A DNA stretch of 64,000 nt from Dictyoglomota bacterium (GTDB lineage Bacteria; Coprothermobacterota; Coprothermobacteria; Coprothermobacterales; JAADFF01): positions 1 to 64,000 of the forward strand of contig JAADFF010000086.1 in the NCBI GenBank assembly GCA_013153035.1. Reading direction: 5' to 3'. Positions within the stretch are counted from its first letter, which is position 1. The number at the start of each line of letters is the position of its first letter. Below, piece after piece: positions 5,422-11,416 of this stretch. Below the pieces are notes generated by a model. That model worked only from the letters and a program-made list of their open reading frames with translations. It made no database searches and had not been told where the DNA came from. The position numbers were made by a program, and so were the translations under genes.

Positions 5422-6363
5422 TTACTTCTTTCTTTTAGGTTTCCTCTGTCCCTTCTTGTTTCCTTGTCTTTTAGCCTGCCAGTTTCTAATATCTACAAGA
5501 AGAGGAGATGCTATGAAAATGGAGGAATATGTACCTGCAAGAATACCCACACTTAGTCCTAAACCATAAGAAAGAAGCAGTCGGCCACCTACAATAAGCA
5601 ATGATAAAGCAGCAAGTAATGTCGTTACAGAGGTATTAAAAGATCTACGGAATGTAGACAGAATGGATTTATTAACAAGCTGTTCAAAGGGCATACCTCT
5701 ATATATATGCTTGTTTTCACGAATTCTGTCGAGAACAACGATGGTATCCATAACAGAATAACCAACAAGTATCAATACCACCGCAACAAATGAACTATCA
5801 ATGGCAACCCTTGTCATGGCAAATACACCAAGAAGCACAAGCACGTCGTGAAGCAATGCTGCAATGGTAACAAGACCATAGATAAACTCGAATCTTACAC
5901 TGATGTATATAAGAATCAAGGCAAGGGCAATAATTGTAGCGGTAAAAGCATTCCAAATAAGAGTCCGTGCCACCGATGGACCAACAAACTCCTGTCTAAC
6001 AATTTGCTTGAAATCCGGAAGAGTTTTAACAAGATTGACAATCTTGTCTCTCTCTTCACCACTTGTGGCCTTTACCCTTAGCATGACTGTGTTTTCTGGA
6101 GAATCTACAGCCTTTACCTCTATATTGCCATAGCCGGCTTTTTGAAAGGTATCCCTGATAACCTGAAAATCAGGAGCTTTATTAAACTGGACTTCGAGAA
6201 CAACACCACCAGTAAAGTCAACACCCAGATTAAATGGAGCCCCGATTGTTGCCACATTAATAATCATGGCAATAATACCGGCAATAATAACAGTTAAAGA
6301 TATAGCATAAAACTTATTTCTATTTCCTACTATATTCCAATTTCCGACCTTAATAATTTCCAC
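5422..6363 (-). CDS. secF: Protein translocase subunit SecF
   Basis: This inner-membrane protein of 313 residues, with SecD, uses the ion gradient to complete export through SecYEG. It has an N-terminal membrane helix (about 20-40), the periplasmic GVDFTGG motif, and five more helices in the second half, including GYSVMDTIVVLDRIREN, the conserved RND-type signature. The C-terminus is a very basic tail. The start is GTG with AGGTGA upstream, 16 nt after secD. Confidence 0.96.
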   Translation of the reverse strand: MEIIKVGNWNIVGNRNKFYAISLTVIIAGIIAMIINVATIGAPFNLGVDFTGGVVLEVQFNKAPDFQVIRDTFQKAGYGNIEVKAVDSPENTVMLRVKATSGEERDKIVNLVKTLPDFKQIVRQEFVGPSVARTLIWNAFTATIIALALILIYISVRFEFIYGLVTIAALLHDVLVLLGVFAMTRVAIDSSFVAVVLILVGYSVMDTIVVLDRIRENKHIYRGMPFEQLVNKSILSTFRRSFNTSVTTLLAALSLLIVGGRLLLSYGLGLSVGILAGTYSSIFIASPLLVDIRNWQAKRQGNKKGQRKPKRKK

Positions 6364-6379
6364 CTTGCATCACCTCTCC

Positions 6380-7744
6380 TTACGCTGCAGTAGTGCTCTG
6401 CTGGACTCTCTTCCTTGGGGGAAGCATTTCCATCAAGCTCCTCAGCACCATCAGTGATGTAAAGACACCTAAGATCGTACCAATAGCCAAGGTAATGGCG
6501 AAACCTCTGATGGTAGGAGCACCAAACCAATACAGAACAAGTGCAGAAATCAATGTAGAAGCATTAGAGTCAAGAATTGTCGGTGTAGATCTGGCAAATG
6601 CCCTTCTCAGGGCCATTCGCCAACTCTTGCCTGCAGCGAGTTCTTCCCTGAGACGCTCGAAGATAATAACGGAACCGTCAACAGCCATACCAACTGAAAG
6701 AATAATACCACCAATACCAGGCAGTGTCAAAACAGCTTGGAAGAGTACTAGGGTTGCCAGGTCCATAATTAAGAAAACCACAAGACCAATAGAAGATATT
6801 AATCCCCAAATCTCATAGTTCAGCGTCATCCATATAACAACAAGTATAAAAGCCAAAATACCGGCTTTAATACCTGCCTTAAGAGCATCTTCACCAATAG
6901 AAGGACCAACATATCTAACCTCTGCAATTTCAACACGGGCTGGTAAAGCACCACCCTGCAAGAGTGCAGCAAGTTTCTTAGCCTCTTCAAGTGTAAATTT
7001 ACCGGTAATAACAGCTTTACCACCAGTAATAACACTCTGTACCACAGGAGCACTAATGACCTTTCCGTCTAGTACTATTGGTATAGGTTTACCCAAATAT
7101 TTACTCGTTATCTCTGCAAACTTCTTTGCTCCCTCATCATTAAATTCAAGATATACAGCATAATATGCACTGTTATTTTGGTCCACTCCAGCATATGCCT
7201 TTACAAGGTCTTTACCCGTAAGAAGCACCTGTTTTCCCGTTGGATCTCTAAATTCGAGTACCGCAGGTTTACCAAGTAAATCTACAATATCATCTGGCGT
7301 AAGGTTTCCACCTTTAATATCCAATGGGATTTCCATAATAATTCTGTTAGGCACTGCCTTATCACGATAAATAACAACCTCGCTAAGACCAAGTGCATTA
7401 ACACGATTTTCAAGCACCTTTATCAGCTCATCTACTTCTTGTGGTGTCAACTGCTTCTGAGTTGCAGTTGAGGCCGTTTCCAGTGGAAATGCCTCTAAAA
7501 CAACATGGACACCACCTTTAATATCAAGACCGAATCTCAACTTCAAAGATGAGGACTTTTTCGTCTCTCCACCTGTAGCGGTAGAGGTTGAAGATGTTTG
7601 TGCAGATGTACCTGTAAGATTTACAGTTGCCTGTTCAACAGCTGGCTTGCTGCCAAAATCAATAACACCTAAGGCAACAAGGTCTACGAACAATGCAATC
7701 AAAACCAGAATAGTGACGATTGCAAGTCTCAGCCCCTTACTCAT
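6380..7744 (-). CDS. secD: Protein translocase subunit SecD
   Basis: This partner of SecF has 454 residues. It has one N-terminal membrane helix (about 7-28), a Ser/Thr-rich stretch, the RFGLDIKGG motif near residue 70, a periplasmic P1 domain and five C-terminal helices with VGMAVDGSVIIFERLREEL, the RND signature with its key Asp. ATG follows AAGGAGGAGG. An extended -10 promoter at the end of tgt suggests secDF can be transcribed on its own. Confidence 0.97.
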   Translation of the reverse strand: MSKGLRLAIVTILVLIALFVDLVALGVIDFGSKPAVEQATVNLTGTSAQTSSTSTATGGETKKSSSLKLRFGLDIKGGVHVVLEAFPLETASTATQKQLTPQEVDELIKVLENRVNALGLSEVVIYRDKAVPNRIIMEIPLDIKGGNLTPDDIVDLLGKPAVLEFRDPTGKQVLLTGKDLVKAYAGVDQNNSAYYAVYLEFNDEGAKKFAEITSKYLGKPIPIVLDGKVISAPVVQSVITGGKAVITGKFTLEEAKKLAALLQGGALPARVEIAEVRYVGPSIGEDALKAGIKAGILAFILVVIWMTLNYEIWGLISSIGLVVFLIMDLATLVLFQAVLTLPGIGGIILSVGMAVDGSVIIFERLREELAAGKSWRMALRRAFARSTPTILDSNASTLISALVLYWFGAPTIRGFAITLAIGTILGVFTSLMVLRSLMEMLPPRKRVQQSTTAA

Positions 7745-7795: not shown

Positions 7796-7804
7796 ATTAT
7801 ATCA
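7796..7804 (-). promoter_or_regulatory. Extended -10 promoter for secDF-apt-rel
   Basis: The minus strand carries TG-A-TATAAT overlapping the last codons of tgt. The predicted start is near 7789, giving a leader of about 45 nt before secD. No clear -35 box is visible, which is allowed for extended -10 promoters. Confidence 0.55.
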
Positions 7805-8917
7805 CTTTGCAGACCATCTTTCCACAAAGTCTTGCTTGAATTCTGCAAATGTTCCTTCTTTTATATGCTTTCTGACATCTTCCATAAGAAGTGTCATAAA
7901 TGCCAAATTAATAAGAGTTGCCACCCTATAACCGAGCATCTCTTTTGTTTTAAATAGATGGTGAAGATATGCCAGTGTATACCCTTCTAAGAATGTAAAT
8001 GTCCTTTGTATACGATCATCTATAGGACGGAAATCATCGGCGTACTTAGCATGTCGAATCTTGATAGGTCCATTAAAGGTATAAATAAGGCCATTACGGG
8101 CAACCCTCATGGGAAGCACACAGTCAAACATATCCACTCCACGCTCAATAGACTCAAGCATATCTACAGGATGTCCAACGCCCATAAGATATACGGGCTT
8201 ATCAAATTCTGACAACTCATCGGTCACAACATCGGTAAGATGATACATCATTTCTTTGGGTTCTCCTACGGCCAATCCACCAATAGAATATCCATCTACA
8301 GGAAGCTTTTTCACCATCTGAGCTGCTTTTCTTCTTGTATGCTCCCTAAAAGCCCCCTGTATAATGCCAAATAAACTCTGATGCCCTGGTCTTTCAACAG
8401 CAAGACTCCTTTCCAACCATTTCATAGTCATATCAAGAGCCCACAATGTTTCTTTCTCATCGCTGGGATATCCAAGACATACATCAAGGGGCATCATAAT
8501 ATCGCTACCAATAATTTTCTGGGCTTCAATAACAAACTCAGGGGTAAACTTATGCTCTCTACCATCTGCATACGATTTAAAGACCACACCTTCCTCGGTA
8601 ATCTTTCTAAACTTAGACAGTGAAAACACCTGGAAACCTCCGCTATCTGTGAGAAGAGAACGGTCCCATCTCATAAATTTATGCACACCCTGAGCTTTCT
8701 TAATGATGTCAAGACCGGGTTTAAAAACTAAGTGGTATGTATTGGATAAGATAATTTGAAAACCCAGTTCCCTTAACTCTTCAGTAGAAAGAGATTTTAA
8801 AGCGGCCTTCGTGGCTACTGGCATAAAAACAGGGGTAATAATCTCGCTGCGTGAGGTCTTTATAACACCTACTTTGGCCTTTCCACTTTGATATAAGACA
8901 CTCCACTCAAGAGCCAT
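7802..8917 (-). CDS. tgt: tRNA-guanine transglycosylase lacking zinc cysteines
   Basis: In bacteria this enzyme exchanges guanine-34 of certain tRNAs for preQ1, the first tRNA-bound step of queuosine synthesis. The 371-residue TIM-barrel protein keeps DSGGFQVFSL (Asp91, general base), the substrate Asp145 and VDMFDCVLPMRVARNG with nucleophile Asp265. The zinc site normally reads CxCxxC followed by His. Here residues 299-312 (IDDRIQRTFTFLEG) contain no cysteine, although the later LHHL histidines remain. The fold could be held without metal, or the protein could have a changed role. Adjacent queA and queH support a queuosine pathway. Confidence 0.93.
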   Translation of the reverse strand: MALEWSVLYQSGKAKVGVIKTSRSEIITPVFMPVATKAALKSLSTEELRELGFQIILSNTYHLVFKPGLDIIKKAQGVHKFMRWDRSLLTDSGGFQVFSLSKFRKITEEGVVFKSYADGREHKFTPEFVIEAQKIIGSDIMMPLDVCLGYPSDEKETLWALDMTMKWLERSLAVERPGHQSLFGIIQGAFREHTRRKAAQMVKKLPVDGYSIGGLAVGEPKEMMYHLTDVVTDELSEFDKPVYLMGVGHPVDMLESIERGVDMFDCVLPMRVARNGLIYTFNGPIKIRHAKYADDFRPIDDRIQRTFTFLEGYTLAYLHHLFKTKEMLGYRVATLINLAFMTLLMEDVRKHIKEGTFAEFKQDFVERWSAK

Positions 8918-8928
8918 ATCCTCACCTC

Positions 8929-9966
8929 CTAAATAAGAAACATAGCATCGCCAAATGAGAAAAATCTATATCCACGATTTAAAGCTTCTTTGTAAAGCCT
9001 TAATACCTTTTCTCTGTCGTAAAAGGCACTAACAAGCATTAGAAGCGTACTTTTAGGCAAATGGAAGTTCGTGATAAGGCTATCTACAACCTTAAACTTA
9101 TATCCGGGATAGATAAACAGTTGAGACTCACCCATGTATGGTTTAATCTCATCATCTGAAGCGGCTGTTTCAAGTGCCCTAACAACAGTTGTACCAACGG
9201 CAATAACCCTCTTACCATTTGACTTTGTCTGTTTAATAATATTGACGGTAGCTTCTGGCACTTCAAGATATTCACTGTGTATTCTATGATGTCTAATATC
9301 CTCCTCTTTAACAGGCTCAAATGTACCAAGCCCAACATGCAGGGTAATATAGGCAATATTCACCCCCATATTTTGGATTTTGGCAAGCAATTCTGGTGTA
9401 AAGTGAAGACCGGCTGTTGGAGCTGCAACAGAACCCTCTTTTTCAGCAAATACTGTTTGATACATCTCGGGAGGCACTTTACCACCAGATTTAATATAAG
9501 GGGGCAATGGCATGATTCCTTTCTTGTCTAAAAATCTCATAACATCTTCAAAAGACATATTCTCAAAGGACACATTGAAAATTTTATCGTTTCTGCCATG
9601 AACATTGATCTTTACATTGTCCACTACAAGGTATGAGGGCACCTTGACCTTTTTAGCAGGTCTGAGAAGAGCCTCCCAAGTGCCATCTTCATTAGGTCTA
9701 AGCAGAAACAGTTCTATTTTTGCACCTGTAGGCTTATTCACAAACAGTCGTGCCTTCATAACTTTAGTATTATTAAGCACAAGGAGGTCACCGGGCTCTA
9801 AAAATTTAACAATGTCTCTAAAAATAACATGGTGCACCTCACCGGTCTTTCTATTAACAACCATAAGTTTACAACTATCTCGTGGATCTGCGGGCTCCTG
9901 TGCGATAGCCTCTTCTGGAAGTTCATAATCGTATGCCTCAAGTTTGTAAATATAATCATCTGTCAT
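8929..9966 (-). CDS. queA: S-adenosylmethionine:tRNA ribosyltransferase-isomerase
   Basis: This 345-residue enzyme transfers the ribosyl part of SAM to preQ1-tRNA, giving epoxyqueuosine. The N-terminus YDYELPEEAIAQEPADPRD and the motifs LLVLNNTKVMKARL, VAAPTAGLHFT and LITNFHLPKSTLLMLVSAF are diagnostic. It overlaps the upstream queH stop by 4 nt (ATGA) and ends 11 nt before tgt, so the three act as one pathway unit. Confidence 0.97.
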   Translation of the reverse strand: MTDDYIYKLEAYDYELPEEAIAQEPADPRDSCKLMVVNRKTGEVHHVIFRDIVKFLEPGDLLVLNNTKVMKARLFVNKPTGAKIELFLLRPNEDGTWEALLRPAKKVKVPSYLVVDNVKINVHGRNDKIFNVSFENMSFEDVMRFLDKKGIMPLPPYIKSGGKVPPEMYQTVFAEKEGSVAAPTAGLHFTPELLAKIQNMGVNIAYITLHVGLGTFEPVKEEDIRHHRIHSEYLEVPEATVNIIKQTKSNGKRVIAVGTTVVRALETAASDDEIKPYMGESQLFIYPGYKFKVVDSLITNFHLPKSTLLMLVSAFYDREKVLRLYKEALNRGYRFFSFGDAMFLI

Positions 9967-10523
9967 AGCTTAAACCACCCACCCTTCATTCTCATTTGCC
10001 ATGCCTCAGCTTCAGAAAAAACACAACCACAATATTTTTGCCTATATATCCCAAGCTCTTTAGCATGGTCTTCACTATATCTATAATAAGGGGAAAAGTC
10101 AACTTTTAGATATTCAAGGTCGTAATCTTTGGCCACCTTCTCTGCCTCACGGTATATTAGTTCTTTAATCTGATACGGAGATATTGTCAATGTTGTAGAA
10201 AAATAATGAAATCCATACTTCTTGGCAAACTGAGCTATCCACTGAAACCGTATCCTATAACAACATCCACACCTATCATCGGATACACCACACTCTTTAA
10301 ACCATTCTTTCGCATCCCATACCATAGGGGCAAATCCAGGAATACTTTCTACTCTTACTACATCTAAGAAACCATCTCTTCGCCTTATCCATTCTGAAAG
10401 AGGATGAATATTGGGATTATAGAAAACAGCAAACACATCCCAATCATGTAGGTGCTCTTTGATATAAGCAATAGATCCAAGAAGACATGGTCCACAGCAG
10501 GTGTGAAGAAGAACTTTCTTCAC
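9963..10523 (-). CDS. queH: Epoxyqueuosine reductase QueH
   Basis: QueH, the non-B12 alternative to QueG, reduces epoxyqueuosine to queuosine in tRNA. The 186-residue protein has the paired cysteines of HTCCGPC near the N-terminus, then DDRCGCCYRIR and KYCGCVFSE, the cluster- and metal-binding motifs of this family. I placed the start at GTG 10523: it overlaps the ruvB stop (GTGA) and has GGAGG 8 nt upstream. A longer frame would begin at a TTG inside that ribosome site. The pathway ends here with tgt and queA downstream; preQ1 synthesis genes are not in the window. Confidence 0.93.
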   Translation of the reverse strand: MKKVLLHTCCGPCLLGSIAYIKEHLHDWDVFAVFYNPNIHPLSEWIRRRDGFLDVVRVESIPGFAPMVWDAKEWFKECGVSDDRCGCCYRIRFQWIAQFAKKYGFHYFSTTLTISPYQIKELIYREAEKVAKDYDLEYLKVDFSPYYRYSEDHAKELGIYRQKYCGCVFSEAEAWQMRMKGGWFKL

Positions 10524-11416
10524 GATACAAACCTCCAACCTTTTGCCGTCAGTTTTCTGCCACGAGAAGTAAGGAGTATGAATCCATCAGCAAGCAGAGA
10601 GGGCTCTATAATTTCCTGAATAGTGCTCACGCTCTCCCCCATTGCTGCGGCAATAGCCTTCACACCGGCTGGTCCACCATTAAACATATGTGCAAGTACA
10701 GACAGATATCGCCTTTCTCTGCGATCAAGTCCAAACTCCGTATCATAGTCTATGATTTCCAAAAGCATTTCAACATGCTCTTTATCTATAAGATCTATGC
10801 TTCTAGTAGTGGCAAAGTCTTTCAGACGCTCAAGAATTAATATCAGCCTTCTGGGCGTATGACGAGAAATTTTTATAACATAATCTTTAGCATCGGGAGT
10901 AAATAAGAAACTATCTGCGTAGAGGTCAATCATCTTGTAAAAATCATCCTTTTCATAATCTCCCACATGAATAACAATAGAAAAACGGGAACGCAATGGG
11001 GGAGATATCTTATCCTCCATCGTAGTAGCCCCAATGAGGGTAAACGGACTTAGCGATATGTGTTTAACTTTACCCTTTCCGATGAGAACATCTATCTCAA
11101 ACCTATCGATAGCAGGATATAAAATTTCTTCAACAGCAGAAGGAAGTCTATGAATCTCATCTATAAATAATATACTTCCAGGAGATAGCTTCAGTAATAT
11201 AGAAACAATATCTTTGGGTTTGCTAACGGCACCGCCAATAATGCGCACAAGAGAGGTTCCCATGTTCTCAGCCATATAACTGGCAAGTGTTGTTTTTCCT
11301 ACACCAGGAGGACCAACAAGTAACATATGGGGAAGAATTTCTCCTCTATCAAGACTGCCCTTTAATACTTCATCTATAAGACGGCTAATTTTACGTGGTA
11401 TGACGATCTGTTTCAT
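10520..11416 (-). CDS. ruvB: Holliday junction branch migration ATPase RuvB, short form
   Basis: This AAA+ motor drives branch migration with RuvA. Walker A is GPPGVGKTT (about 35-43), Walker B is ILFIDEIHR, and an arginine-finger region (LRSRFS) and a C-terminal winged helix (GGPAGVKAIAAAMGES) are present. At 298 residues it is shorter than the usual 330 or so. The N-terminal RP-(x)n-GQ segment that wraps the nucleotide is missing, and the sensor motif reads GATTMED instead of GATTRAG. The start is supported by AGGTGAT and overlaps ruvA by 26 nt, so truncation by annotation error is unlikely. Confidence 0.92.
   Translation of the reverse strand: MKQIVIPRKISRLIDEVLKGSLDRGEILPHMLLVGPPGVGKTTLASYMAENMGTSLVRIIGGAVSKPKDIVSILLKLSPGSILFIDEIHRLPSAVEEILYPAIDRFEIDVLIGKGKVKHISLSPFTLIGATTMEDKISPPLRSRFSIVIHVGDYEKDDFYKMIDLYADSFLFTPDAKDYVIKISRHTPRRLILILERLKDFATTRSIDLIDKEHVEMLLEIIDYDTEFGLDRRERRYLSVLAHMFNGGPAGVKAIAAAMGESVSTIQEIIEPSLLADGFILLTSRGRKLTAKGWRFVS

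Follow-up and report, generated by a model that had tools for sequence, protein, structure and literature searches.

The window, that is, the whole 64,000-nucleotide stretch of DNA analyzed here, belongs to a Coprothermobacterota MAG and carries on its minus strand a gene for tRNA-guanine(34) transglycosylase (Tgt), with which queuosine synthesis on tRNA begins. Its open reading frame spans exactly 7802-8917, is preceded by a Shine-Dalgarno-like sequence (AGGAGGTGAG) and yields a product of 371 amino acids. The gene, its residues of interest and its neighbors are the following:

5422..7744, minus strand: secD and secF, downstream of tgt, in conserved synteny
7802..8917, minus strand: tgt, tRNA-guanine(34) transglycosylase lacking, by alignment, all four zinc ligands (371 aa)
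7910..7912, minus strand: Ile336, aligned with the fourth zinc ligand position (His in TxHN)
7958..7981, minus strand: Y313...Y317..H320, aligned with Z. mobilis W326/Y330/H333, aromatic/His character kept
7982..8023, minus strand: former zinc loop, residues 299-312, IDDRIQRTFTFLEG aligned in place of CxCxxC
8123..8125, minus strand: Asp265, nucleophile (Z. mobilis Asp280), invariant in 100 sequences
8483..8485, minus strand: Asp145, substrate-recognition Asp (Z. mobilis Asp156), invariant in 100 sequences
8645..8647, minus strand: Asp91, catalytic (Z. mobilis Asp102), invariant in 100 sequences
8929..9966, minus strand: queA, next step of queuosine synthesis (NF001140, 469 bits; cutoff, 324)
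9963..10538, minus strand: queH, epoxyqueuosine reductase with intact Cys motifs CCGPC, CGCC and CGC (PF02677, 157 bits)

The protein scored 421.8 bits against TIGR00430, the bacterial Tgt equivalog model (curated cutoff, 306.75 bits), and 453 bits against PF01702; with 124.7 bits it missed the cutoff of 350 bits set for the archaeosine enzyme TgtA (TIGR00432). It is the sole PF01702 protein of the genome, and a second, zinc-bearing Tgt was considered and rejected, as none is present. The first-pass annotation had entertained a dedicated variant; however, the protein is not a dedicated paralogue but the only Tgt of the genome, encoded within a queH-queA-tgt operon. The order ruvC-ruvA-ruvB-queH-queA-tgt-secD-secF-apt is kept in Coprothermobacter as well. 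Because the neighboring RuvB (10520-11416, minus strand) scored under both NCBIfam RuvB cutoffs (279.2 versus 282 and 269.5 versus 299), it represents a form that has diverged or is shortened at its N terminus.

Alignment with the Z. mobilis Tgt (1ozm; E value of 9e-102) placed SECHCAVC opposite DDRIQRTFTF, the loop of the window Tgt being two residues longer, and confirmed the earlier claim that a Cys-free sequence, IDDRIQRTFTFLEG, replaces CxCxxC at residues 299-312. The only cysteines of the protein, C147 and C266, both align with conserved barrel cysteines of the Z. mobilis enzyme. The check for displaced zinc cysteines proposed in the first-pass annotation therefore returned none, and their relocation within the protein was rejected. 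What that annotation had overlooked is the His of the TxHN motif, the fourth zinc ligand in Tgt of Z. mobilis and E. coli. Ile336 aligns with this position, which strengthens the metal-free reading. As judged from the alignment, the zinc site is wholly absent, with all four ligands lost, and this loss suggests that the protein carries no zinc.

A sequencing error or frameshift was rejected as the source of this change, since the change is shared by the sister genome and the gene shows purifying selection. The zinc-free state recurs in a separate assembly of the same genus (G001, contigs L002 and L051) at 94% identity, and the comparison of the two tgt genes gave a dN/dS of 0.05 at a dS of 0.77. 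Residues 299-312 form the most variable stretch between them, as 5 of the 22 amino acid changes lie in these 14 of 358 residues (p 0.0008). In addition, two contigs of the sister assembly (L002:2831-3904 and L051:2-331) overlap in tgt and differ at 10 of 291 bases, and both amino acid changes between these strain variants (A306T and C307Y) lie within the former zinc loop. With the changes concentrated there in both comparisons, the loop is the part of the enzyme least held by constraint, to which the remainder is clearly subject.

The base-exchange aspartates 91, 145 and 265, previously noted as intact, are indeed so and were invariant across an alignment of 100 diverse Tgt sequences. The preQ1 pocket is also kept, with C147 and V217 aligned to Z. 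mobilis C158 and V233. Y313, Y317 and H320 are the equivalents of Z. mobilis W326, Y330 and H333, which are presumably interface residues. Bacterial TGT has been reported to work solely in homodimeric form (PMC5395182), and the window Tgt, which keeps the interface character at these three positions, may dimerize. The structure prediction called for by the first-pass annotation gave a confident AlphaFold2 model (mean pLDDT of 96.4), with predicted values of 97 to 98 through the former zinc loop. The best structural matches of the model were Z. mobilis TGTs (TM of 0.92 to 0.96), in support of the TGT fold, and no zinc-free Tgt structure was recognized among the PDB matches. Since the input alignment was rich in zinc Tgts, from which AlphaFold2 would reproduce this fold in any case, the model supports the fold rather than the details of what substitutes for zinc.

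Conservation of the active site suggests that the window Tgt performs preQ1 exchange. In the barrel, Asp265 would act as the nucleophile and Asp91 as the general acid/base, replacing G34 of GUN-anticodon tRNAs with preQ1, and QueA and then QueH would complete queuosine. None of the nine genomes searched yielded a QueF, and a search for QueC yielded weak and mostly short matches, as expected of related ATP pyrophosphatases. The window genome encodes a QPTR (PF02592) queuosine-precursor transporter (G000:C10:26712-27191; L238:1291-2037). Because no QueF was found, salvage of preQ1 through QPTR is probable, and the most likely route leads from salvaged preQ1 through Tgt and QueA to QueH. At the tgt and QPTR loci, no Rfam match to a preQ1 riboswitch was obtained. 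The search of other Coprothermobacterota gave no QPTR; most of them, Coprothermobacteraceae and a further family of the phylum (f3) included, encode QueT in its place. QPTR and QueT thus represent a transporter swap in a phylum in which no QueF was found.

The Tgt of Coprothermobacteraceae has the loop deleted (RPLEYQPQYTYGYLHHL) and Glu in place of the fourth-ligand His. The Coprothermobacter proteolyticus enzyme (G002, L089) shares with the window Tgt the syntenic operon, membership of one clade and the absence of all four ligands; however, it is 48% identical, its loop is deleted rather than replaced, and it carries Glu where the window Tgt has Ile. Its loop-deleted model reached a pLDDT of 96. 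In contrast, family f3 retains both CxCxxC and the His. The f3 locus matches in having ruvB-queH-tgt followed by secD-secF, with a yajC-like open reading frame and another one in between and with queA elsewhere. Separately, we observed that the f3 Tgts (L094 and L095), which keep the zinc site, have FDS where an almost invariant FDC otherwise follows the nucleophile Asp. Even after removal of the zinc columns, the five rows of Coprothermobacterales Tgts grouped as one clade (SH-aLRT of at least 95). Because they form one clade and f3 has zinc ligands at a matching locus, the simplest reading is that zinc was lost on the stem of Coprothermobacterales and that remodeling diverged afterwards. A transfer from Peribacteria, hinted at by a common FDCVLPMR motif, was unsupported, as the tree joined the window Tgt with Coprothermobacter whether the zinc columns were in or out.

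The first-pass annotation had expected a zinc-free bacterial Tgt to be unusual. This did not hold, since CxCxxC was also absent from 38 of 51 Bacteroidota Tgts (20 with Gln and 18 with His at the fourth-ligand position), in which the zinc-free state was the commoner one in the sample, from all 42 Peribacteria-type Tgts (Gln at that position) and from several Patescibacteria lineages (17 of 70 Tgts). Among other lineages of the domain, 1 of 41 Tgts lacked it. The samples were chosen partly by score, and these counts are therefore not population frequencies; likewise, the overall proportion of 113 out of 231 collected sequences is biased by the sampling of Peribacteria and Bacteroidota. One Peribacteria-type zinc-free Tgt (L031) lies on a contig labeled as a Kiritimatiellales MAG, probably by mis-binning or transfer.

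Across the 231 sequences, the His was present in all 118 Tgts with CxCxxC and in 27 of the 113 without it; in a non-redundant set at 72% identity, the corresponding counts were 101 of 101 and 16 of 58, the Fisher test of this coupling being uncorrected for phylogeny. Such coupling is what the loss of a shared metal predicts. Zinc-state changes numbered 12 on the best tree and 15 with the zinc columns left out, and well-supported branches held only five independent pairs. On such branches, a paired comparison of losing the His with losing the cysteines had too few pairs to reach significance. Since CxCxxC-free Tgts occur in several lineages and the Cys and His ligands are often lost together, zinc loss appears to have recurred in bacteria, with about 12 to 15 changes on the best trees and 5 on well-supported branches. 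By these alignments, CxCxxC plus His fails as a defining feature of the Tgt family.

Collectively, we propose, with a probability of roughly 0.86, that the genome's only Tgt is a functional bacterial Tgt, a derived form with a dismantled structural zinc site. If the protein instead had no preQ1 exchange activity and served another role or were decaying, the disappearance of a site that has traditionally counted as structural in Tgt would be easily accommodated. Yet such a protein would hardly show a dN/dS of 0.05, retain every catalytic and pocket residue and be the genome's only Tgt, adjoining queA and queH in a genome with QPTR, and we consider this very improbable. Nor do we give much credence to an alternative metal site in the loop, with Asp300, Asp301, Glu311 and His319/320 as its ligands. 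Acidic residues and an HH pair do lie near the former zinc site in sequence, but D301 changes to E and residues 305 to 308 vary freely among sister genomes and strains, the loop is deleted in Coprothermobacter, and an HH at this position also occurs in zinc Tgts, whose ligand is presumably the TxHN His.

The first-pass annotation had further suggested a thermophile solution, and an adaptation to heat or sulfide would suit Coprothermobacter, a zinc-free member of the phylum that originates from a thermophilic digester. However, temperature is a poor explanation because Bacteroidota and Patescibacteria, where zinc-free Tgts are widespread, provide most of those collected and, to our knowledge, are not groups known as thermophiles. 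In the same genome, QueH keeps its Cys motifs and the C-terminal Cys cluster of an NrdD-like open reading frame, a probable zinc site, is intact. For this reason, general avoidance of zinc or cysteine is a poor explanation as well, and adaptation to heat or sulfide seems a distant prospect.

Under the favored reading of a functional enzyme with a dismantled site, zinc most likely serves the C-terminal subdomain as a structural staple and becomes dispensable once the loop is repacked. Mutation of the zinc cysteines impairs E. coli Tgt, as far as is known, so that zinc loss needs compensation. With three cysteines and a helix-borne histidine gone, packing of side chains presumably keeps the loop in place. 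In the window genus, Ile336 may pack against the new loop on its F307/F309/L310 side, and in Coprothermobacter a shortened YQPQYTY loop with Glu may serve as the substitute.

The window Tgt exemplifies a state that is widespread and has recurred, and the interest lies in this recurrence rather than in the single gene. On balance, we lean toward the view that zinc-free bacterial Tgts, among them those of many Bacteroidota, Peribacteria and Coprothermobacterales, make up a large class that has gone undescribed, with repeated origins, often with all four ligands lost together, with different substitutes and with normal queuosine synthesis. The first-pass annotation had allowed that many homologues with the same change might already be described. 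The change is indeed widespread; however, our literature search, with most subscription papers outside its reach, found no paper describing zinc-free Tgts. If many bacterial Tgts lack the zinc site, then the metal is unneeded for the chemistry, the blanket zinc-cofactor annotation is wrong for zinc-free proteins, and the repeated losses constitute a natural experiment on replacing a structural zinc staple.

Compared with Tgt of Z. mobilis and E. coli (TIGR00430, PF01702), the window Tgt, about 44% identical to the former, shares the fold, the catalytic Asp triad, the preQ1 pocket and the interface aromatic positions; however, those enzymes bind zinc through CxCxxC and the TxHN His, whereas the window Tgt has none of the ligands and a loop two residues longer. 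Human QTRT1/QTRT2 and archaeal TGT share the TIM barrel with its C-terminal metal subdomain but are zinc bearing, and archaeal 1iq8 and QTRT2 matched the window Tgt weakly. QTRT1 and QTRT2 carry zinc, and the zinc-binding domain has been named as one of two TGT hallmarks (PMC6165067). The Tgts of Bacteroidota, Peribacteria and some Patescibacteria resemble the window Tgt in lacking CxCxxC and having the catalytic Asp, but they fall on separate branches and carry His, Gln, Asn, Ala, Val or Thr at the position of the fourth ligand.
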